Assembly: GCF_014207605.1 (NCBI RefSeq)
Contig: NZ_JACHHI010000003.1
Coordinates: 1-64,000, forward strand
Source of the DNA: Negativicoccus succinicivorans
Lineage (GTDB): Bacteria; Bacillota; Negativicutes; Veillonellales; Negativicoccaceae
Direction of reading: 5' to 3'
Length of the DNA: 64,000 bases
The position numbers and the translations under genes are program-made. Below are positions 39,434 to 60,709 of this stretch, piece by piece. Below the pieces are notes generated by a model that did no database searches, was not told where the DNA came from, and saw only the letters and a program-made list of their open reading frames with translations. Position 1 is the first letter of the stretch. Each line of letters starts with the position of its first letter.

Positions 39434-39460
39434 ATAAAAAACGCAGCGGAACGCTGCGAT
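39434..39460 (-). terminator. Terminator of the SRP RNA gene
   Basis: CGCAGCG-TTC-CGCTGCG followed by TTTTTTATTT, read leftward just before dnaX. Confidence 0.88.
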
Positions 39461-39626
39461 ATCCGGTTACCGGCAGAAACCGTTTATGACAACCTCCCGA
39501 GTTACCTCGTGGCACATGAAAGGATTCGCTTACTGCTGCTTCCTCTCGGACCTGACAGGGTTCACGAACTTCCATTGCACAAGCCCCGAAAGGTTGCCAT
39601 AAACGACCTCTGCACAGTCGCCGGTT
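39455..39626 (-). ncRNA. ffs: Signal recognition particle RNA
   Basis: The leftward strand carries the conserved domain IV: CCTGTCAGGTCC, then GAGGAAGCAGCAG, closed by GTTCGTGAA. Long pairing of CGTTTATGGCAACC with GGTTGTCATAAACG makes helix 5, and ACCGGC/GCCGGT closes the ends. At about 170 nt it is intermediate, without an obvious Alu-type domain. Placement directly upstream of dnaX is the Firmicute arrangement. Ends are approximate. Confidence 0.9.
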
Positions 39627-39631
39627 ATTTC

Positions 39632-39660
39632 ATTATACAAAAAACGGTACGAAAGCGCAA
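39632..39660 (-). promoter_or_regulatory. Promoter of the SRP RNA gene
   Basis: Leftward TTGCGC (39660-39655), 17-bp spacer, TATAAT (39637-39632); expected start near 39626. Confidence 0.8.
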
Positions 39661-39680
39661 TACTTCCGTACCGTCATTTC

Positions 39681-40520
39681 TTACGGATGATGCCGCAACG
39701 CCGCGGTCACCGCCGCGTCCAACATAAGCGCGGTCGTTACCGAACCGATACCGCCCGGAACCGGTGTCGCCGCCTGCGCTTTCGCGAGCGCCTCCGGCGC
39801 GACATCACCGACGGTTTTGCCGTCCACGCGATGAATGCCGACATCGACGACAACCGCATCTTCACTCACCATATCCGGCGTCACCATCATCGCTTTGCCG
39901 ACCGCCGCGACCAAAATATCCGCCGCGCGAGTGAAGTGTGGCAAGTCCTGCGTTTTGGAGTGGCAAATGGTAACCGTCGCATTCGCCGCCAGCAATAATT
40001 GCACAACGGGTTTACCGATGACATCGCTGCGACCGATCACGACCGCGTGTTTACCGGCGAGCGGAATGTCATAATGCCGCAATGTAGCGAGCACCGCCCG
40101 CGCGGTCGCCGGCACAAATGCGGTGCGCCCCGTCACAAGCCGGCCTACCTGCGTCGGTGTCAAACCGTCGATATCCTTGCCCGGCGCAATCGCTTCGACC
40201 AGCGAACTGCGATCCAGTCCCGGCGGCAACGGCATTAAAAGTAAAATGCCGTCAATCTGCGAATTCTGATTCAGCGCGTGAATCGTCGCCAAAGCGTCCT
40301 CTTGCGTCAGATTTTCCTCGGGCTCGACCCGTTCGACATATAATCCCGCTTGCGTTGCAGACTTCGCTAAAAAGTCGCCGTACATCTGCGCCGCCCGATC
40401 CGCGCTGAAACGCACAATGGCCAGCCCCGGAGTAACGCCCTTCGCCGCCAGCATGCGAATTTTTTTCGCCGTGGTTTCCTGCTGCGCGGCCGCTACCGGC
40501 GCCCCCTTAAGTTCTCGCAT
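39681..40520 (-). CDS. folD: FolD-family methylene-THF dehydrogenase/cyclohydrolase, altered site
   Basis: 279 residues with intact NAD(P) motif VVIGRSDVIGKPVVQLLL and C-terminal TPVPGGIGSVTTALM. The catalytic region reads AAQMYGDFLAKSATQAGL: aligned without gaps to E. coli FolD (YVASK), the essential Lys56 is Leu51 here, and Gln100 (ILVQLPLP) is Leu95 (ILLLMPLP). The Tyr and the DIDGL aspartate remain. Cyclohydrolase activity may be lost. It follows fhs by 9 bp, so a one-carbon role is still expected. Confidence 0.9.
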   Translation of the reverse strand: MRELKGAPVAAAQQETTAKKIRMLAAKGVTPGLAIVRFSADRAAQMYGDFLAKSATQAGLYVERVEPEENLTQEDALATIHALNQNSQIDGILLLMPLPPGLDRSSLVEAIAPGKDIDGLTPTQVGRLVTGRTAFVPATARAVLATLRHYDIPLAGKHAVVIGRSDVIGKPVVQLLLAANATVTICHSKTQDLPHFTRAADILVAAVGKAMMVTPDMVSEDAVVVDVGIHRVDGKTVGDVAPEALAKAQAATPVPGGIGSVTTALMLDAAVTAALRHHP

Positions 40521-51570: not shown

Positions 51571-51655
51571 TGGTGCGGTTGGAGAGACTCGAACTCTCAC
51601 GGATTGCTCCACTGCCGCCTGAAGACAGCGCGTCTGCCAGTTCCGCCACAACCGC
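51571..51655 (-). tRNA. tRNA-Leu (anticodon CAG)
   Basis: Full cloverleaf with long variable arm and encoded CCA; anticodon loop TTCAGGC. Confidence 0.95.
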
Positions 51656-51671
51656 GTGGGTAATATGTAGT

Positions 51672-51758
51672 TGGTGCGGCTGGTGAGACTTGAACTCACA
51701 CGGAGTTACCTCCACTACCCCCTCAAGATAGCGCGTCTGCCTGTTCCGCCACAGCCGC
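51672..51758 (-). tRNA. tRNA-Leu (anticodon GAG)
   Basis: Cloverleaf with long variable arm and encoded CCA; anticodon loop TTGAGGG. Confidence 0.95.
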
Positions 51759-51772
51759 AAGCTGTGAAAAAA

Positions 51773-51849
<77 letters not shown>

Positions 51850-51861
51850 AAAAAGAAAAAA

Positions 51862-51937
51862 TGGCGACCCGGATCGGATTTGAACCGACGATCTCCGCCG
51901 TGACAGGGCGGCATGTTAACCACTACACCACCGGGCC
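51862..51937 (-). tRNA. tRNA-Asp (anticodon GTC)
   Basis: Cloverleaf with encoded CCA; anticodon loop CTGTCAC. Confidence 0.95.
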
Positions 51938-51942
51938 ATAGA

Positions 51943-52018
<76 letters not shown>

Positions 52019-52026
52019 ATATAAAA

Positions 52027-52101
52027 TGGTGACCCGTGGGGGATTCGAACCCCCGATACCGCCGTGAAAGGGCGGTGTCTTAACCACTTGACCAACGGGC
52101 C
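52027..52101 (-). tRNA. tRNA-Glu (anticodon TTC)
   Basis: Cloverleaf with encoded CCA; anticodon loop CTTTCAC. Confidence 0.95.
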
Positions 52102-52136
52102 GTGTATAAAATTGTTCCCCAAGGTTAAAATGAATA

Positions 52137-52212
52137 TGGTGACCCGTGGGGGATTTGAACCCACCGATCCCGCCTTGAGAGGGCGGTGTCTTAACCACTT
52201 GACCAACGGGCC
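52137..52212 (-). tRNA. tRNA-Glu (anticodon CTC)
   Basis: Nearly identical to the neighbouring tRNA-Glu(TTC), so probably its tandem copy; anticodon loop CTCTCAA. The T stem GTGGG/CCCCC contains one T-C mismatch. Confidence 0.92.
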
Positions 52213-52221
52213 AGAAAAAAG

Positions 52222-52297
52222 TGGTGATCCATCCGCGACTCGAACGCGGGACACCCTGATTAAAAGTCAGGTGCTCTACCAACTGAGCTAATGGATC
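52222..52297 (-). tRNA. tRNA-Lys (anticodon TTT)
   Basis: Cloverleaf with encoded CCA; anticodon loop CTTTTAA. Confidence 0.95.
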
Positions 52298-52300
52298 ACG

Positions 52301-52375
52301 TGGCAGGGGTGGAAGGATTCGAACCTGCGCATGGCGGAGTCAGAGTCCGCTGCCTTACCACTTGGCTACACCCCT
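52301..52375 (-). tRNA. tRNA-Gln (anticodon CTG)
   Basis: Cloverleaf with encoded CCA; anticodon loop CTCTGAC. Confidence 0.94.
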
Positions 52376-52376
52376 A

Positions 52377-52452
52377 TGGCTCCCTGAGTAGGACTCGAAC
52401 CTACGACCGATCGGTTAACAGCCGATTGCTCTACCAACTGAGCTATCAGGGA
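52377..52452 (-). tRNA. tRNA-Asn (anticodon GTT)
   Basis: Cloverleaf with encoded CCA; anticodon loop CTGTTAA. Confidence 0.95.
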
Positions 52453-52456
52453 ATAA

Positions 52457-52531
52457 TGGAGCGGGAAACGAGATTCGAACTCGCGACCCTCGCCTTGGCA
52501 AGGCGATGCTCTACCACTGAGCTATTCCCGC
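52457..52531 (-). tRNA. tRNA-Gly (anticodon GCC)
   Basis: Cloverleaf with encoded CCA; anticodon loop TTGCCAA. First tRNA of the 11-gene operon. Confidence 0.95.
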
Positions 52532-52658: not shown

Positions 52659-52693
52659 CAAAAAAGTGACATAGCAGAACGTTGCTATGTCAC
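52659..52693 (-). terminator. Terminator of the metF-metH-larC operon
   Basis: Leftward GTGACATAGCA-ACGTTC-TGCTATGTCAC followed by TTTTTT, 7 bp after the larC stop. Confidence 0.9.
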
Positions 52694-52699
52694 AAAATT

Positions 52700-53473
52700 T
52701 CAAGGGTTTTGGCCGAAAATGTAGGGCGCCGGTACCTGCCAGCGCTGCACAGGCAACAACTGGCCGTAGTAGCCTCCCAATGTATTGGACGCAGCGAGAT
52801 CATACGTCCCTGCGCCGTAGCCGACACGATCAATCACCAATTCAGACGGACGTTTTTCTACCGGTACGGCAAATGTCGCAAGCGCCGCCGCACCGGTCGG
52901 TGTAGTGAGTTCATAGTCGGGCGTTCCGGTGATCGTCGGGAAACCCTGCAACAAAAACTGTGTCGCGGGCGCGGGGACCGAAAGTTCGCCGTGTGCCGCG
53001 CGAATCGTACCCGATCCGGTGGCCACCGGGCCTGTTAATACAATATCGATGTCCAAATATTCCAAACCGAGCGCAATCGACGCGCAATCGATGATGCAAT
53101 CGACCGCGCCGACTTCATGAAAATGCACGTCTTCTGGCGCAATCCCATGGGCCCTGCTTTCCGCCAGCGCCAGTGACCAGAAAATGGATACCGCGCGTTG
53201 TTTCGCGCTGCCTGACCAATCGGCGCGCGCCAAAATGGTTAAAATATCCGGTAAATGACGATGCGTGGTTGTTTCCTTCACATCAACGTTAAAATACGTC
53301 GCCGTGATGCCTCGCTTGTTGACCTTTTCAAAAATCAACTCGTAGTCGTCAAGTCCGAGTTTTTGTAACTCATTGATCAGCCAAATCTGTGGCACTCCTA
53401 AATCAAGCAACACCCCGACAAACATGTTGCCGCTGATCCCGCTCACGGGATCCAAGTACAATGCCCGTTCCAT
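52700..53473 (-). CDS. LarC N-terminal-type protein (DUF111), no LarC2
   Basis: 257 residues with LarC1 motifs: LDPVSGISGNMFVGVLLDLG at about 8-27, VHFHEVGAVDCIIDCASIAL, GPVATGSGTIRAAHGELSVP and TTPTGAAALATFA. In Lactobacillus LarC inserts nickel into the pincer cofactor in a CTP-dependent step and needs LarC2, made by frameshift. Here a terminator and tRNA genes follow, so no LarC2 is possible in cis, and no larB/larE are seen. It is last in the Met T-box operon and begins TGATG after a cobT remnant. Function in this context is unknown. Confidence 0.82.
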   Translation of the reverse strand: MERALYLDPVSGISGNMFVGVLLDLGVPQIWLINELQKLGLDDYELIFEKVNKRGITATYFNVDVKETTTHRHLPDILTILARADWSGSAKQRAVSIFWSLALAESRAHGIAPEDVHFHEVGAVDCIIDCASIALGLEYLDIDIVLTGPVATGSGTIRAAHGELSVPAPATQFLLQGFPTITGTPDYELTTPTGAAALATFAVPVEKRPSELVIDRVGYGAGTYDLAASNTLGGYYGQLLPVQRWQVPAPYIFGQNP

Positions 53474-53759
53474 CAGAGCACTTCCTTTCGCTGCCTTCCT
53501 TTACCCGGACCGTCCTCGGCCACCGTCACACCGGCGGCGCCGAACGTCCGCATTTCATTCAACATATCGAGTGATGCGTCGAGCAGGGACAGCCCCAATG
53601 TCGAGCCGAGTCCTTGCGCCAACGTGAAATTATAATGCAACGCTTCCTGTAATCCCAACTTTTGTAATTGCAATTTGTGCAGGGGATCAGGATACGCCGC
53701 CGAGGCGAATACGTAGTCGTTTAGCCGCGGCGCGATCGCTACCGCCGCTACTGCCGCCT
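53473..53759 (-). pseudogene. Duplicated 3' end of the cobT-like gene
   Basis: This stretch repeats the last third of the cobT-like gene at 58606-58892: 61 of the last 66 residues agree (KLGLQEALHYNFTLAQGLGS and on), and the DNA is about nine-tenths identical by eye. Similarity stops abruptly at 53759/58892, 19 bp past the metH stop. There is no start codon and no N-terminal two thirds. It keeps the TGATG junction to larC. Confidence 0.88.
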
Positions 53760-53777
53760 GTCTCCCCGCGATACCGC

Positions 53778-56180
53778 CTACCGCATCGGATCTTCCCGGG
53801 TGCCGAAAAATGCCGCCGCAATATCGGCCACGGCCGCGGGGTGTGCCGCATACCGGTCCGCACCGATGTCGGCCGCGTAGCGTTCATTGAGTACGGCACC
53901 GCCGACCACCACTTGCACGTCGGGAATCTCCCGTTTGAGCAAGGCGATGGTTTCCTGCATGGAGACAACCGTCGTCGTCATCAGCGCACTCAAGCCGACC
54001 AGTCGTGCATGATAGGTGCGACAGGCATCGAGGATCGCTTGGGGCGGCACGTCTTTGCCGAGGTCGATGATCCGATAGCCGTAGTTTTCCAGTACGACTT
54101 TGACAATATTTTTGCCGATATCATGCACATCGTGCCGCACCGTCGCAAGAATAATCGTGCCGCGATCGGCGGCCGTTTCTCCCTTAGCCTCCAGTACCCG
54201 TTTGACTTCGGCAAACGCAACTTGTGCGGTTTGCGAGGCCCGGATCAGTTGCGGTAAAAACAGTTCCTGCGTTTCAAAACGTCGTCCCACCTCGTTCAAT
54301 GCGCCGATAAGATCCTCATTGACCACGTCAAGCGGCGCTTTACGGGCGAGCAGTTCTTTTGTCAGTCGCAGCGTTTCCGCTTCCAGTCCGTCGACAATCG
54401 CCGCCAAAATCGTCGAGACGGGCGACGGTGCCTTGGCCTCGTCTTGTACTTTACGAGCCCGGGCGATCCATTCCCGCGCCCCGTCATCGTATCCCGCCAG
54501 CACACGGTAGGCGGCCAATGTATCCGTCATACCCCGATCGCCGGGATTGGCAATCGGGGCGTCCAGTCCGTGGGCCAGTGCCATCTGTAAAAATGTCCGA
54601 TTAATGATCGAGCGTTCCGGCATGCCGAAGGAAATATTGCTCACGCCGAGTGCGGTCGCCACGCCGAGTTCCCGTTTCACGAGAGCAACGGCCTCGGCGG
54701 TAATCCGTGCATTTTCCGCACCGGTGCCGAGTGTCAATGTCAGACAGTCAATGAGGATATTTTCTCGCGGGATACCCCATTCCAATGCGCGAGTAACGAT
54801 TTTTTCTGCCAGTGCGAGTCGTCCTTTTGCCGTATCGGGAATCCCGTTTTCATCCAGCGTCAGTCCCAGTACGCAGGCCCCGTAGCGGCGAGCGATCGGC
54901 AATACTTGTGCCAGACTGTCCTCCCCCGCATTGACCGAGTTGAGCAGCGGTTTGCCCGCCACCGCTCGTGCCGCCGCCGCCAACGCGGTCGGTGAGGCCG
55001 TGTCAATCACGAGCGGCGTACCCGTCACCGTTTGTACGGCACGTACCGCCCGCGGCAAGAGTGTCGGTTCATCGACACCCGAGGTACCGACATTGATGTC
55101 AAGAAGCGCCGCGCCTTCCCGACGTTGGACAACAGCTTCCCGAACGACACGATCAAGTACGCCGCGACGCAGTTCTTCCTGCAACTCCCGTTTGCCCGTA
55201 GGATTGATTCGTTCTCCGATCATCAGCGGGCCTTGTCCCAAAACGACGGTTTCCGCATAAGAGGACACCCGTGTTACGGGAGTGACGGAAGGTCTCGTGC
55301 CGTGCACTTCCCCACGCAACGCATGCAAGCGTGCCATCAGTGCGGGATCGGTACCGCAGCAGCCGCCGATGATCTCCACGCCGCGCGACAGGAAATAGCG
55401 CATATGATCAAGATGCGCCTGTACATCGAATCGACTATGACCGTCGGCATCGGGAATCCCGCCGTTCGGCTGCACGATCAACGGCAGTTTCGTTGCCGCC
55501 AACAAAGCGTCCACCAGCGGTCGTGTCTCCGCCGCCCCGAAGGAGCAGTTGATCCCGACGGCTGTCACGCCGAGTCCTTCCAGTGTTGTCGCCATACTGA
55601 CGACATCGGTCCCCGTAAAGGTCCGTCCCGTATGTTCAAAACTCATCGATGCCAAGACGGGAAGATCGCTGTGTTCGCGGGCCGCAAGAACGGCATATTT
55701 GAGTTCCGCCAAATCGGTTTGCGTTTCGATGATGATCAGATCGACACCGGCCGCCACCCCCGCTTCGACTTGTTCCCGATACAAATCATACGCCCGCTCG
55801 GGAGACATATCCCCCGCCGGTGCAAGCAACGCGCCGATTGGCCCAATATCCAAGGCCACGTAAATCGGTCGTGTGCCGTGATCGGCGATATAGCGTTCCC
55901 GTGCCCGCCGCGCACATCCGACGGCGGCATGAATCAAGGCGCTCGGTGTCGCATCCGTATCCGCACATTTGTAGCCGTTGGCACCAAACGTGTTTGTCGT
56001 CAGCACGTCCACGCCGCTCACGAGATAGTCATAGTGTATCGACTCGATAAGTGCAGGCTCATGCAGTACGCACATATCGGGCGCAATCCGCAGATCCGGT
56101 CGCCGCCGTTGGACTTCCGTACCCATCGCTCCGTCAATGAGTACGGTCTGCCCGGCAAGAAATGTACTAAATGGTATCAT
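53778..56180 (-). CDS. metH: Cobalamin-dependent methionine synthase, four-module form
   Basis: 800 residues. Homocysteine/zinc domain (IDGAMGTEVQRR at 16; zinc Cys in GGCCGTDPAL near 278), pterin-binding domain (from IGERINPTGK), cap, and B12-binding domain with DVHDIGKNIV and SALMTTT. The C-terminal reactivation domain of the long MetH is absent and is encoded next door. It methylates homocysteine using methyl-THF from MetF and a cobamide. It overlaps the activation gene by 14 bp. Confidence 0.95.
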   Translation of the reverse strand: MIPFSTFLAGQTVLIDGAMGTEVQRRRPDLRIAPDMCVLHEPALIESIHYDYLVSGVDVLTTNTFGANGYKCADTDATPSALIHAAVGCARRARERYIADHGTRPIYVALDIGPIGALLAPAGDMSPERAYDLYREQVEAGVAAGVDLIIIETQTDLAELKYAVLAAREHSDLPVLASMSFEHTGRTFTGTDVVSMATTLEGLGVTAVGINCSFGAAETRPLVDALLAATKLPLIVQPNGGIPDADGHSRFDVQAHLDHMRYFLSRGVEIIGGCCGTDPALMARLHALRGEVHGTRPSVTPVTRVSSYAETVVLGQGPLMIGERINPTGKRELQEELRRGVLDRVVREAVVQRREGAALLDINVGTSGVDEPTLLPRAVRAVQTVTGTPLVIDTASPTALAAAARAVAGKPLLNSVNAGEDSLAQVLPIARRYGACVLGLTLDENGIPDTAKGRLALAEKIVTRALEWGIPRENILIDCLTLTLGTGAENARITAEAVALVKRELGVATALGVSNISFGMPERSIINRTFLQMALAHGLDAPIANPGDRGMTDTLAAYRVLAGYDDGAREWIARARKVQDEAKAPSPVSTILAAIVDGLEAETLRLTKELLARKAPLDVVNEDLIGALNEVGRRFETQELFLPQLIRASQTAQVAFAEVKRVLEAKGETAADRGTIILATVRHDVHDIGKNIVKVVLENYGYRIIDLGKDVPPQAILDACRTYHARLVGLSALMTTTVVSMQETIALLKREIPDVQVVVGGAVLNERYAADIGADRYAAHPAAVADIAAAFFGTREDPMR

Positions 56181-56757
56181 GGGGTTCCTCCTTTCGTGTG
56201 CAGCCGGTGAGAAAAATAATCGATTTTTCCGGCACCATCAGATGACCGTCCGTCACATGCACACCGATTCGCTTCGACAGTTGCAGGCATGTTGCCAATT
56301 CCTGATTGAGCGCCAGCGGTACGTCACCGTAGCCGGGACTGAAACGCATCGTCGTTGCACCGAACGTGTGCTGCAAGTACGCCGCATAGGCATCGACTAA
56401 TACCGACGCCGTCGCGTCGACGACAACCCCCAGTGCAGGATCGGTCGCCATCCATTCACGAATAGTACGATACACGTCCTGACCGATGGTACAGCCGCAA
56501 ACGATGACCTCGTCGCAATCGGCAAAGAGCCGTCCGAGCGAACGATACGGCAACACGGTATCTCCCCAGCAGCCGCCGGTATCCGTACTCCGCCACGGGC
56601 GTCGCTGATGCGTTTCCCGATATACGGCGGCCGCATCGACAATCTCCCGCGCCCGATCGAGCCAACGGCGATCGGACTCACTGATCCGGCGCCGTTTGTG
56701 TCGCAAAAAACGCAACACGTCGTCTTCATCATAAAAATCAGCCGGCGTTCGTTCCAC
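56167..56757 (-). CDS. Stand-alone MetH activation-domain protein
   Basis: 196 residues ending with TTMRFSPGYGDVPLALNQEL, the AdoMet-binding RxxPGYG motif of the MetH reactivation domain. Such separate proteins restore oxidised cob(II)alamin MetH with AdoMet, as in Thermotoga and many Firmicutes. It overlaps metF by 20 bp and metH by 14 bp, so the three are translationally linked. Confidence 0.88.
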   Translation of the reverse strand: MERTPADFYDEDDVLRFLRHKRRRISESDRRWLDRAREIVDAAAVYRETHQRRPWRSTDTGGCWGDTVLPYRSLGRLFADCDEVIVCGCTIGQDVYRTIREWMATDPALGVVVDATASVLVDAYAAYLQHTFGATTMRFSPGYGDVPLALNQELATCLQLSKRIGVHVTDGHLMVPEKSIIFLTGCTRKEEPHDTI

Positions 56758-57640
56758 GATGTTCCTCCTTGACCGTTTGCAAGGTGCGGCCGATCCCCCT
56801 TGTGACCGCCTGTACCACTTCCGGCCGATTCATCACATACAGGTGAATACCGTCCACTCCCGATGACAATAAATCAATAATCTGCTCGCACGCATACGCA
56901 ATGCCCGCATCATACATCGCCTCCGGCGCATGCTCGTAGCGGTCGAGCATCCGGCGAAACTTCGGCGGCAAACTCGCCCCCGACAACGCGGTCATTCGCA
57001 CAATCTGCGCCTTGTTCAGACAGGGCATGATGCCGGCGGAAATCGGCACATTGATGTCGATACTGCGGGCCGTTTCCAAAAAGCGGAAAAACGCGTCATT
57101 GTCAAAAAACAGCTGCGTCACCAAAAAGTCCGCCCCCGCATTCACCTTATCTCGCAAGCGGATCAAATCCGCCGTCAGGCTGCGAGCCTCCGTATGGCCT
57201 TCAGGATACGTCGCCGCACCGATACAAAATGCGTGCTTGGAGCGCACGTAAGCCACCAGCTCATTGGCATAACGGAATCCGTCCGCGGGCATTTCGCCGT
57301 CTTCTCTGCGATCGCCGCGAAGTAACAGCGTATTTTCAATTCCCGCCGCTTCGATCCGTGCCAAAATCTCCGCCAGTTCCGCTTGCGAATATCCCACGCA
57401 AGTCAAATGCATCAACGGCTCGATGTCCAGCTCCTTGCGGATATACTCCGCCAATTTCAACGTCAACATACCGCGTGCCGCCCCCGCCGCACCGTACGTC
57501 ACCGACATATAGTCGGGATGCCATTGGGCCAACTCATGCAATGTCGCCACCATATTGCCCAAATCGCCTTCCCGTTTCGGCGGGAACACCTCAAACGAAT
57601 ATAACGGCCCTTCTTTTTCATACTTGTCTTTGATTTTCAT
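56738..57640 (-). CDS. metF: Methylenetetrahydrofolate reductase
   Basis: 300 residues: YSFEVFPPKREGDLGN, MSVTYGAAGAARG, LRGDR and DFLVTQLFFDN are MetF signatures (FAD-binding TIM barrel). It reduces methylene-THF to methyl-THF for MetH. First gene of the operon behind the T-box leader; GAGGTCCGT precedes the ATG. Confidence 0.95.
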   Translation of the reverse strand: MKIKDKYEKEGPLYSFEVFPPKREGDLGNMVATLHELAQWHPDYMSVTYGAAGAARGMLTLKLAEYIRKELDIEPLMHLTCVGYSQAELAEILARIEAAGIENTLLLRGDRREDGEMPADGFRYANELVAYVRSKHAFCIGAATYPEGHTEARSLTADLIRLRDKVNAGADFLVTQLFFDNDAFFRFLETARSIDINVPISAGIMPCLNKAQIVRMTALSGASLPPKFRRMLDRYEHAPEAMYDAGIAYACEQIIDLLSSGVDGIHLYVMNRPEVVQAVTRGIGRTLQTVKEEHRGTNAG

Positions 57641-57660
57641 ACGGACCTCTTTTCCCTATA

Positions 57661-57934
57661 AAAAAAGCCCTCGCCCTGATTGCTCAGGGACGAGGACACT
57701 CGTGGTACCACCCTACTTCATCTGCGCTGCAGACCTCATTCATGTACGGCTCAAAGAGCGATACACCAGTGCAGTGACGGGCACACCCGGCACGACCTTG
57801 CCTTGCGGCTCAGCCGGCAGCTCCGAGGCCATTTTCCGCAACGGTTATGATCGCCCGTTTTCACCGACTCGGGCTCTCTGTCGATCGTCTGCGTTGCGTA
57901 CTCTTCTCTTCATCGCTTTTCACATATGTAAATT
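57661..57934 (-). promoter_or_regulatory. T-box leader, probably methionine-specific
   Basis: Leftward transcript begins near 57934 with GCGATGAAGAGAAGAGTA, the stem I start, and CGACAGAGAGCC. The T-box AGGGTGGTACCACG lies at about 57714-57701, and the terminator CCTCGTCCCTGA/TCAGGGCGAGG with TTTTTT at 57697-57661. In stem I the specifier region reads GCGGAAAATGGCCTCGGAGC; ATG (57832-57830) is the best specifier, i.e. Met. The T in the TGGT bulge fits a discriminator A. Uncharged tRNA-Met should switch metF-metH on. Confidence 0.9.
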
Positions 57935-57940
57935 AGAAGC

Positions 57941-57970
57941 ATGATACCAAATCCGTCGACCGATTGTCAA
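57941..57970 (-). promoter_or_regulatory. Promoter of the metF operon
   Basis: Leftward TTGACA (57970-57965), 18-bp spacer, TATCAT (57946-57941), just upstream of the T-box RNA. Confidence 0.78.
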
Positions 57971-57997
57971 ACACTTCAGAAAATTATCACGTAATTC

Positions 57998-58606
57998 TCA
58001 CCAACCACTAATCGTACCGCGTGCACGAGCGGTATCGCCGAATACGTAAGGACGCTCCTGTGTCCACGGCACCGGCTGTCGATAGCCGAGTGTCGCCTCC
58101 GTTACCGCATCACCGCAGATGCCGTAGCCGACCCGATCGGCAATCCGCTCACCCGGCATTTGTGTCGTCACCCATGTCTGCGTTAATACGGCGATCGCTC
58201 CCGTGCCGACGGATTCCGCCGCGACAACCGTCACGTCAAGATAATCCAATCCCAACGCAATGCCCGCCGCCAGCAGCCATTCGTCCGCTGTCAGCACCGC
58301 GCCGACCGTTTCCGCCTGAACGGCCAACGCGGCCAAGCGTTGCCACCCGCCCGCCGCTTCACCGTCCGTCGGCAAGGACGCACGTACCGCCGCGGCAGCG
58401 GGAGAAACGGGCAGCGTCGCCGTCACCGCGACATCACGCCCGACGATCCCGCGACAGGTGACGTCATGAACCGTCACCGTTGCGCGATCGTGGCACCACC
58501 GCCGGTATTCGGCTTGCCAATATGCCGCCGGCACGCCGCAACCGGCAAGCGCACCGAGCCAGCCCGCCGGCGAAGAAAGCACCGGCAGATACAATATCCG
58601 TTCCAT
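57998..58606 (-). CDS. Strongly diverged LarC-like protein
   Basis: 202 residues starting MERILYLPVLSSPAGWLGAL (compare MERALYLDPVSGISGNMFVG in the other copy). The C-terminal IADRVGYGICGDAVTEATLG and PYVFGD match the LarC gene at 52700 (IDRVGYGAGTYDLAASNTLG, PYIFGQ). The key motifs (SGISGNM, HFHEVGAVD, GPVATGSG) are lost or changed, and about 50 residues are missing. The TGATG junction to the preceding cobT-like gene is identical in layout. Either decaying or with a new role. Confidence 0.75.
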   Translation of the reverse strand: MERILYLPVLSSPAGWLGALAGCGVPAAYWQAEYRRWCHDRATVTVHDVTCRGIVGRDVAVTATLPVSPAAAAVRASLPTDGEAAGGWQRLAALAVQAETVGAVLTADEWLLAAGIALGLDYLDVTVVAAESVGTGAIAVLTQTWVTTQMPGERIADRVGYGICGDAVTEATLGYRQPVPWTQERPYVFGDTARARGTISGW

Positions 58607-59652
58607 CACCGCACCTCTTCTCTCTGTCGCCCCTTGCCCGGGCCGTCTTCCGCCACCGCCACACCGGCGGCGCCGAACGTCCGCATTTCATTCAACATAT
58701 CGAGTGATGCATCGAGCAGGGACAGTCCCAACGTCGAGCCGAGCCCTTGCGCCAACGTGAAATCATAATGCAACGCAGCCTGTAATCCCAATTTTTGCAA
58801 TTGTAATTGGTGCAGGGGATCAGGATACGCCGCCGAGGCGAATACGTAGTCTTTTACCCGCGGCGCGATCGCAGCCGCCGCTACTGCCGCCGCGCCGGTG
58901 ACGCTGTTGTCAAAAACGATCGCCATATGGCGCGCGGCCGCGCCTAAAACCAGCCCCGTCAACATCGCAATCGATGCGTTTCCGTAGCGCGTGAGTACCG
59001 TTTCCGGTTCCGTTTGCGCCAACGTCCACGCCTCACTTTGCGCGGTAAAGCCCTGCGCCCGCATCGCTTCGGAGAGTTCCGGTCCTAAAAAGGCCGTCGT
59101 CACGGCAAGCGCCGCAAGCGCGCCGCGAGCGCCGATTTCACCGAGCGCCAATGCTTCGACGCCGCTATGCGCCAATTCACCGGCCAGCGCGCCGCCGAAG
59201 GCAATCGCTTCCGCGCATGCTTCCTGCGTCAGCGCGTCCCCTTTTTGCAATGACTGACTGCCGTTTTGCATTTTATGCAGCATCACGCCCGCGACATGTT
59301 CGGTGTTTTGTTCCAAGCCGACATCCGCCACATATACCGGCGCCTGCAGTTCGCGCGCCAACGCCGAAACGGGCGCCGCGCCGCCGGCAATAAGCATCAG
59401 TTCCGCCAGGCTCTTTTTTCCGTGATCCTGATTGTCCGGACTGTCGATCGACGTATCCGCGGCGGCAATGACAATGGCTTTTTGCAGGCGAGCCGGTTTT
59501 TTACGGCAGGTAATGCCGGCGATGCGAATCGCCATTTCTTCCAATTGCGCCAATGAGCCCAACGGTTTGGTAAGGTTATCGACGTACTCGCGGCATTGCT
59601 CCATCACCGAGGTGTCGAGCGGCGCGATTTGATCATTCCATGCTTCCAACAT
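58606..59652 (-). CDS. CobT-family subunit lacking the catalytic Glu (ArsA/ArsB-like)
   Basis: 348 residues of CobT fold: LTKPLGSLAQLEEMAIRIAG, VADVGLEQNTEHVAG, VFDNSVTGAAAVAAAAIAP. At the C-terminal catalytic loop CobT has GEGSGA; here it reads LAQGLGSTLGLSLL, so the general-base Glu is absent. In Veillonella and Sporomusa two adjacent CobT homologues, ArsA and ArsB, work only as a heteromer and activate phenol and p-cresol for phenolyl cobamides. This gene overlaps its partner by 20 bp and fits that pattern. Its 3' end is duplicated at 53473-53759. Confidence 0.8.
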   Translation of the reverse strand: MLEAWNDQIAPLDTSVMEQCREYVDNLTKPLGSLAQLEEMAIRIAGITCRKKPARLQKAIVIAAADTSIDSPDNQDHGKKSLAELMLIAGGAAPVSALARELQAPVYVADVGLEQNTEHVAGVMLHKMQNGSQSLQKGDALTQEACAEAIAFGGALAGELAHSGVEALALGEIGARGALAALAVTTAFLGPELSEAMRAQGFTAQSEAWTLAQTEPETVLTRYGNASIAMLTGLVLGAAARHMAIVFDNSVTGAAAVAAAAIAPRVKDYVFASAAYPDPLHQLQLQKLGLQAALHYDFTLAQGLGSTLGLSLLDASLDMLNEMRTFGAAGVAVAEDGPGKGRQREEVR

Positions 59653-60709
59653 CGGCGTTACCTCCCTGCATCATTTCTTGTTTCGTCAGGCAATCATTGT
59701 AAATCGCCAACGCATGTTCAAGCATGCGCATCTGCACCGACGCACCGGACGCTTCTCCGAGCCGTAGCCCTAAATCAACGTAGGCTTCCGTCTGCAAGGC
59801 CTCAAGCGCCATGCAATGCGCCTTTTCCGCCGACAGATGCGACGCCATCACATAGTGACGACTGGCAGGAGCGATCGCTTTGGCGATATGCGCGCAGGCG
59901 GTCGTATTGAAGCCGTCGATGATGACCAGCGCATGATGCGCGGCCGCCGCTAAAATAACGCCTGAAATCACACCGAATTCGAAGCCGCCGACTTTCGCCA
60001 AGACATCGATGCCGTCCGTTTTATCCGGACGGTTCACCGTCAACGCTTTCGCAACGATTTTCTGTTTGCGCGCCAAACGTTCATCGGAAATATTCGTGCC
60101 TCGTCCCGTCACCTGCAATGCATCCCAGCCGCCGAATGCACCGATGATCGCTGCCGCCGATGTTGTATTGGAAATCCCCATTTCCCCGACGGAAAGCAAT
60201 CGGTAACCGCGCGCGATGACATCACCGGCCACTTCGATCCCCGCTTCGATCGCTTGAATCGCCTGCGCCCTCGTCATCGCCGGGCCTTCACTGAAATCCT
60301 GCGTGCCGTAGGCGATTTTTCTGTCCAAGAGCCCCGGAACTCCACTCATATCCGCATTGATGCCCGCATCAATCACCGTCATGTCCGCTCCGGCGTAATG
60401 CGCCAGCGCGTTGGCTCCGGCGCCTTTACTGATGAGATAATTTTTCGTCATCTCTACCGTCGTTTCCACCGGATACGCGGACAATTGATGACGCGCCACG
60501 CCGTGATCCGCCGCGGCTAAAATCATCATTTTCTTAGGCGGCGTCGGCATGACTTCACCCACTACCGCCGCATATTGCACAACGATATCGCGCAGTTTTC
60601 CCAAGTTTCCGTTACCGAGCACCAAATCATCGGCGCGCGACGCGGCCGCTTCCGCAATGCTCGGCGATGGCACTTCAATCTGCGCCACCGTCTTTTCCCA
60701 CAGACTCAT
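59633..60709 (-). CDS. cobT: Nicotinate-nucleotide phosphoribosyltransferase CobT family (ArsA/ArsB-like partner)
   Basis: 358 residues, canonical CobT: MMILAAADHGVARHQLSAYP, YLISKGAGANALAHYAGADM, GEMGISNTTSAAAIIGAFGG and the catalytic loop GLRLGEASGASVQMRMLEHA with the Glu. It transfers ribose phosphate from NaMN to a lower-ligand base. Paired with the Glu-less neighbour it probably forms an ArsAB-type enzyme, so lower ligands may include phenolics. Starts behind GGGAGGGATCC. Confidence 0.9.
   Translation of the reverse strand: MSLWEKTVAQIEVPSPSIAEAAASRADDLVLGNGNLGKLRDIVVQYAAVVGEVMPTPPKKMMILAAADHGVARHQLSAYPVETTVEMTKNYLISKGAGANALAHYAGADMTVIDAGINADMSGVPGLLDRKIAYGTQDFSEGPAMTRAQAIQAIEAGIEVAGDVIARGYRLLSVGEMGISNTTSAAAIIGAFGGWDALQVTGRGTNISDERLARKQKIVAKALTVNRPDKTDGIDVLAKVGGFEFGVISGVILAAAAHHALVIIDGFNTTACAHIAKAIAPASRHYVMASHLSAEKAHCMALEALQTEAYVDLGLRLGEASGASVQMRMLEHALAIYNDCLTKQEMMQGGNADVGSME

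Follow-up and report, generated by a model that had tools for sequence, protein, structure and literature searches.

The 64,000-nucleotide stretch of Negativicoccus succinicivorans DNA analyzed here (the window; contig NZ_JACHHI010000003.1, positions 1 to 64,000) carries, in tandem, two gene arrangements that are alternatives behind arsB in this family. One is larC1, found in genomes that have the Lar system and lack methionine genes, and the other is larCx followed by metF and metH, found where the Lar system is missing and the methionine genes are present. The locus is probably a tandem fusion of these two arrangements produced by a one-event transfer. Events of this kind are already known, and this example is unusually complete: the resident, donor-type, and fused states of a single locus are all visible, the likely crossover can be placed within about 27 bp, and having both arrangements in one chromosome makes the case unusually legible.

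Four genomes of the family were compared: that of the window (G000), the only other one of the genus (G001; median protein identity of 94% to the window genome), and two from elsewhere in the family, G002 (a MAG of an uncultured Veillonellaceae bacterium, CAMCNU010000002.1) and G003. In G001, the locus reads permease, tRNA array, larC1, arsB, arsA, an htpX-like gene, and aldehyde dehydrogenase, with arsB and larC1 overlapping directly, and G003 has arsA-arsB-larC1; the undivided ancestral layout that the sequence-only reading had expected in related genomes, with arsB and larC adjacent, is thus seen intact in both. G002 has arsA-arsB-larCx-T-box-metF-act-metH, where act is a methionine synthase activation-domain gene. 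G000, G001, and G003 have LarA; G002 does not, and it also has no PF01969 match anywhere and is without larC1 and LarC2. Among these four, metF is found only in G000 and G002, G001 and G003 have no metF, metH, or metE, and none of the four has MetE. The window's type of metH is confined to G000 and G002 among 61 genomes of the order, as is larCx among 250 genomes of the class. The relatives' layout supports the earlier proposal that the methionine operon entered an arsB-larC locus through an event that copied the arsB end.

The genes of the locus all lie on the minus strand. Upstream are arsA (59633-60709; PF02277; 97.5% identity to G001) and arsB (58606-59652), two tandem CobT homologues whose best solved matches are the ArsA chain 4hdk_A (E 5.7e-115) and the ArsB chain 4hdk_B of Sporomusa ovata (E 8e-59); the latter match replaces the label cobT-like under which arsB had first been described. 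We identify them by homology as the phenolyl-cobamide ArsAB pair. Tandem arsAB genes, which activate phenolic lower ligands, are nearly restricted to the Negativicutes (PMC6461909). The pair resembles ArsAB of Sporomusa ovata and Veillonella, which activates phenol or p-cresol as lower ligands of phenolyl-cobamides, in its tandem order and best solved matches; it differs in that the window contains a second arsB end, which is a headless remnant, and in that its substrate is predicted by homology.

The two arsB ends form a direct repeat on the same strand (53457-53758 and 58590-58891; ~300 bp, 302 ungapped) with 89% identity and a spacing of 5,133 bp, beyond which identity is at chance level on both flanks. 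The left edge is abrupt, with identity dropping at once at 53758, 20 bp past the metH stop codon, and the right edge lies just beyond a TGATG stop/start overlap, after the opening codons of the LarC-type gene into which each copy runs. Copy 1 (58590-58891) comprises the arsB 3′ end and the first bases of larCx, and exactly between the copies are the T-box, metF, the activation-domain gene, and metH. The duplicated block and the enclosed methionine operon described in the sequence-only reading are therefore real, and its sharp repeat end is too, although the coordinates given for it (53759 and 58892) are each one base off. Copy 2 includes a 286-bp arsB 3′ remnant (53473-53758) that begins at arsB position 761 and has no start of its own. 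It holds a Shine-Dalgarno-like AAAGGAAG and the TGATG ahead of larC1, and the scar thereby suggests why a broken arsB end persists, as it carries the likely ribosome-binding site of larC1. The remnant branch has accumulated seven silent and six amino-acid changes, small numbers that are compatible with relaxed or no constraint.

Alignment with G001 and G002 shows that the full-length arsB is a mosaic. Its first ~1010 bases are G001-like (to ~58637-58663), and its last ~38 bases, from 58636 to the stop, are G002-like; its product ends in QREEVR as in G002, and the remnant ends in QRKEVL as in G001. There are 30 sites at which the repeat copies differ, and the remnant agrees with G001 at 6/19 before arsB position ~1011 and at 11/11 after it, where the full-length arsB agrees with G002 at seven of the 11. 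This switch in affinity is significant by permutation (p 0.001) and by Fisher's test (p 0.0003). Upstream of it, dS between the two copies is 0.21, whereas their dS values to G001 are 0.56 and 0.63; 23 changes set both copies apart from G001, compared with 6 found only in the full gene and 12 found only in the remnant. The joining is therefore younger than the split from G001, although recent gene conversion between the copies could mimic a young age.

We propose that the starting state resembled that of G001, with arsA-arsB-larC1-terminator-tRNAs, and that the incoming DNA came from a relative with the G002 arrangement, arsB-larCx-T-box-metF-act-metH. A homologous crossover would have occurred near the arsB 3′ end (~58636-58663), within about 10 to 27 bp, and the donor end behind metH would have been joined, with no detectable homology, to the resident arsB at a point 286 bp short of its end. 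The product would be a full arsB with a donor tail, larCx, the methionine operon, and a headless arsB end leading into the resident larC1. The presumed nonhomologous junction lies in the 20-bp gap between the metH stop codon and the remnant (53758-53777). In the sequences compared, no homology is visible at 53758, and a 40-mer spanning the metH end and the gap (53760-53799) has no other occurrence in the four genomes with up to three mismatches.

We infer a single event of one-sided homologous recombination, which is similar to homology-facilitated illegitimate recombination (PMC3240628) in that one homologous crossover, here indicated by the allele switch at arsB ~1011, and one nonhomologous join, here presumed, insert foreign DNA. 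Short duplications of the homologous end are a known outcome in E. coli, where most of the Lac- events analyzed had duplications of 109 to 950 bp (PMC3240628), and the 286 bp duplicated here supports one-sided integration. The classical process is described with loss of recipient sequence, whereas here 286 bp have been copied instead; moreover, the homologous partners in this case are related alleles, and the event is reconstructed from sequence.

The divergence of the block between the window and G002 bears on the donor. When 62 gene pairs are ranked by synonymous difference, larCx, metF, the activation-domain gene, and metH all fall within the lowest 10 (pS 0.51 to 0.60, against a median of 0.67 and 0.65 for arsA and arsB), so the common ancestor of the block would be later than that of the genomes, although the signal is modest and values in this range are also seen for the codon-biased atpD, atpA, and rpsB. 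A recent transfer directly from G002 can be set aside, as four-fold-site identity is only 0.49 to 0.65 and GC3 differs. Third-position GC in the block is host-like and unlike that of G002, which argues that the donor was not close to G002. It was probably an unsampled member of the same family; no genome with its exact sequence was found.

An unlikely alternative is an ancient local tandem duplication, in which the family ancestor had arsB-larC-metFH-arsB′-larC1, one larC copy decayed to larCx, and the arsB ends stayed similar through gene conversion. Recombination between the repeats would then have removed larCx-metFH from G001 and G003, and G002 would have lost arsB′-larC1. A 300-bp direct repeat could cleanly delete the block, the same mosaic would arise from a conversion tract with its end at arsB position ~1011, and the host-like third-position GC of the block fits this history. 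However, this history needs three independent losses as well as recent conversion, there is no relic in G001, G003, or G002, and all four block genes rank with the least diverged of the G002 pairs, which the neighboring arsA and arsB do not. The branching order of the family, taken from pairwise identities of 42 genes, is a near trichotomy in which G003 is if anything closer than G002 to G000 and G001 (24/42 genes), which adds a loss.

Less likely still, the donor fragment could have closed on itself, metH end to arsB, and integrated through a single crossover in arsB. Single crossovers of shortened circular molecules are the authors' own explanation for most of the E. coli duplications (PMC3240628), and the final gene order would be the same. 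With such a circle, the part of the 286-bp remnant ahead of the crossover should be donor sequence, and only the part behind it resident. Over the 250 bp that precede the switch, however, the remnant resembles the window's own arsB more than it does G001, and it is no nearer to G002; a donor would therefore need an arsB that is of resident type in this part and of G002 type in the final 38 bp. An assembly chimera of two strains or species is highly improbable, although the assembly is in 10 contigs: the metH-arsB junction joins sequences too dissimilar to have been brought together by assembly overlap, identity between the copies is only 89%, and the contamination estimate is 0.07%.

The methionine operon that the proposed transfer would have delivered begins with a sigma-70-like promoter (TTGACA-18-TATCAT, 57941-57970), an 11/12 match that is largely kept in G002 (TTGACA-18-TATGAT), although such sites occur in the region at chance level. 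Behind it lies a T-box leader (57683-57922; RF00230, 96.6 bits) with AUG, for methionine, at the specifier position of the alignment and located ahead of methionine genes; G002 has it too (96.8 bits; L034:8351-8590). The genes are metF (56738-57640; PF02219, E 2.7e-78; 87% identity to G002 and absent from G001 and G003), the activation-domain gene (56167-56757; 84% to G002), for which the PF02965 match is weak and below cut-off (E 1.3e-4), and metH (53778-56180; 84% to G002), which has homocysteine, pterin, and B12 domains and no activation domain. The order metF-act-metH also occurs in many Clostridia, which have the same two-gene type of methionine synthase, and in the metH tree the window and G002 fall within a Tissierellia/Peptostreptococcaceae clade that includes Fusibacter, apart from other Veillonellales. 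Taken together, gene order and clade indicate that the operon most likely entered the family from Clostridia. The window's operon differs from the Clostridia type in standing behind a Met T-box; no Met T-box was found in seven related loci searched, of which four carry SAM riboswitches, and the leader may have been gained after the operon's entry into the family.

The two LarC-type genes are quite different from each other. The resident larC1 (52700-53473; 92% identity to G001) encodes the N-terminal half of the nickel-pincer cofactor protein (PF01969, E 2.7e-72; TIGR00299, E 1.1e-49) with the SGISGNM and VHFHEVG stretches, and is under purifying selection (dN/dS 0.07 versus G001). The donor-derived larCx (57998-58609; 203 aa), which appears to be coupled translationally to arsB through TGATG, has no Pfam or NCBIfam match and lacks both stretches; its product is 53% identical to that of the gene in the same position in G002 and 29% identical to larC1 of G001. 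An AlphaFold2 model of larCx on three sequences was of no use (mean pLDDT 36.5). In the tree, larCx falls on a long branch inside the family's larC1 clade (support 92/92), which points to descent from larC1; the most plausible view is that it was the larC1 of a lineage from which the Lar system has disappeared. The tree placement within its own family also excludes larCx as kin of an arsB-linked LarC1-like group in another family, f2. The earlier suggestion that the two genes arose by duplication in place and diverged under uneven selection is not supported, nor is a need for later gene conversion. We read them instead as two alleles from two lineages: larCx also lies between arsB and the T-box in G002, and so arrived together with the methionine genes, and the arsB ahead of it is likewise of G002 type over its last ~38 bp.

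The window genome has LarA, and larC1 resembles LarC of the lactate racemase system in its PF01969 half, but here LarC is split into two unlinked genes, and larCx, without the conserved stretches, is also present in G002, which has neither LarA nor LarC2. We note that larC2 is located beside larB at a distant locus (G000:C1:219019-219411; L037:7975-8430), and that G001, G003, and most f3 genomes also have LarC1 and LarC2 at separate places.

A tentative possibility, which we would not favor, is that a LarC1-like protein made right after ArsB (larCx in the window and G002, as well as the separate f2 group) has a job in phenolyl-cobamide metabolism that is independent of lactate racemase. Five genomes without LarA (G002, G004, G006, G009, and G024; loci L005, L007, L027, L028, and L030) keep an open LarC1-like gene of 200 to 258 aa directly after arsB, which suggests a role apart from lactate racemase, and larCx has a dN/dS of ~0.46 over a synonymous distance near 0.9 with its reading frame unbroken, in support of the same idea. 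In f2, most of the genomes with LarA encode a full-length LarC separately, at another locus.

Two consequences of the proposed transfer are likely. First, the window genome would have acquired a complete methionine synthase of the cobamide-dependent type, and with it probably the ability to make methionine, in a bacterium with a cobamide pathway whose nearest relatives are without metF, metH, or metE. Second, larC1 would have moved from the arsAB operon into the Met T-box operon. Between metH and larC1, we found no convincing terminator, only one weak stem inside metH (53815-53834), and larC1 is therefore predicted to be read mainly from the Met T-box promoter; a strong terminator-like stem follows larC1 (52666-52693; 11 pairs and TTTTTTG), in a region where the total number of such sites is at chance level. 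If the operon prediction is true, an insertion has accidentally made a nickel-cofactor gene subject to control by methionyl-tRNA, and the locus is a small natural case of regulation rewired in this way.

After larC1 lies an array of 11 tRNA genes (51574-52531) in resident synteny, with 11 tRNAs at the same place in G001. Several families of the order have an array of equal or reduced length at the corresponding position behind the arsB region. Elsewhere in the window, on the minus strand, is a bacterial large SRP RNA (39452-39700).
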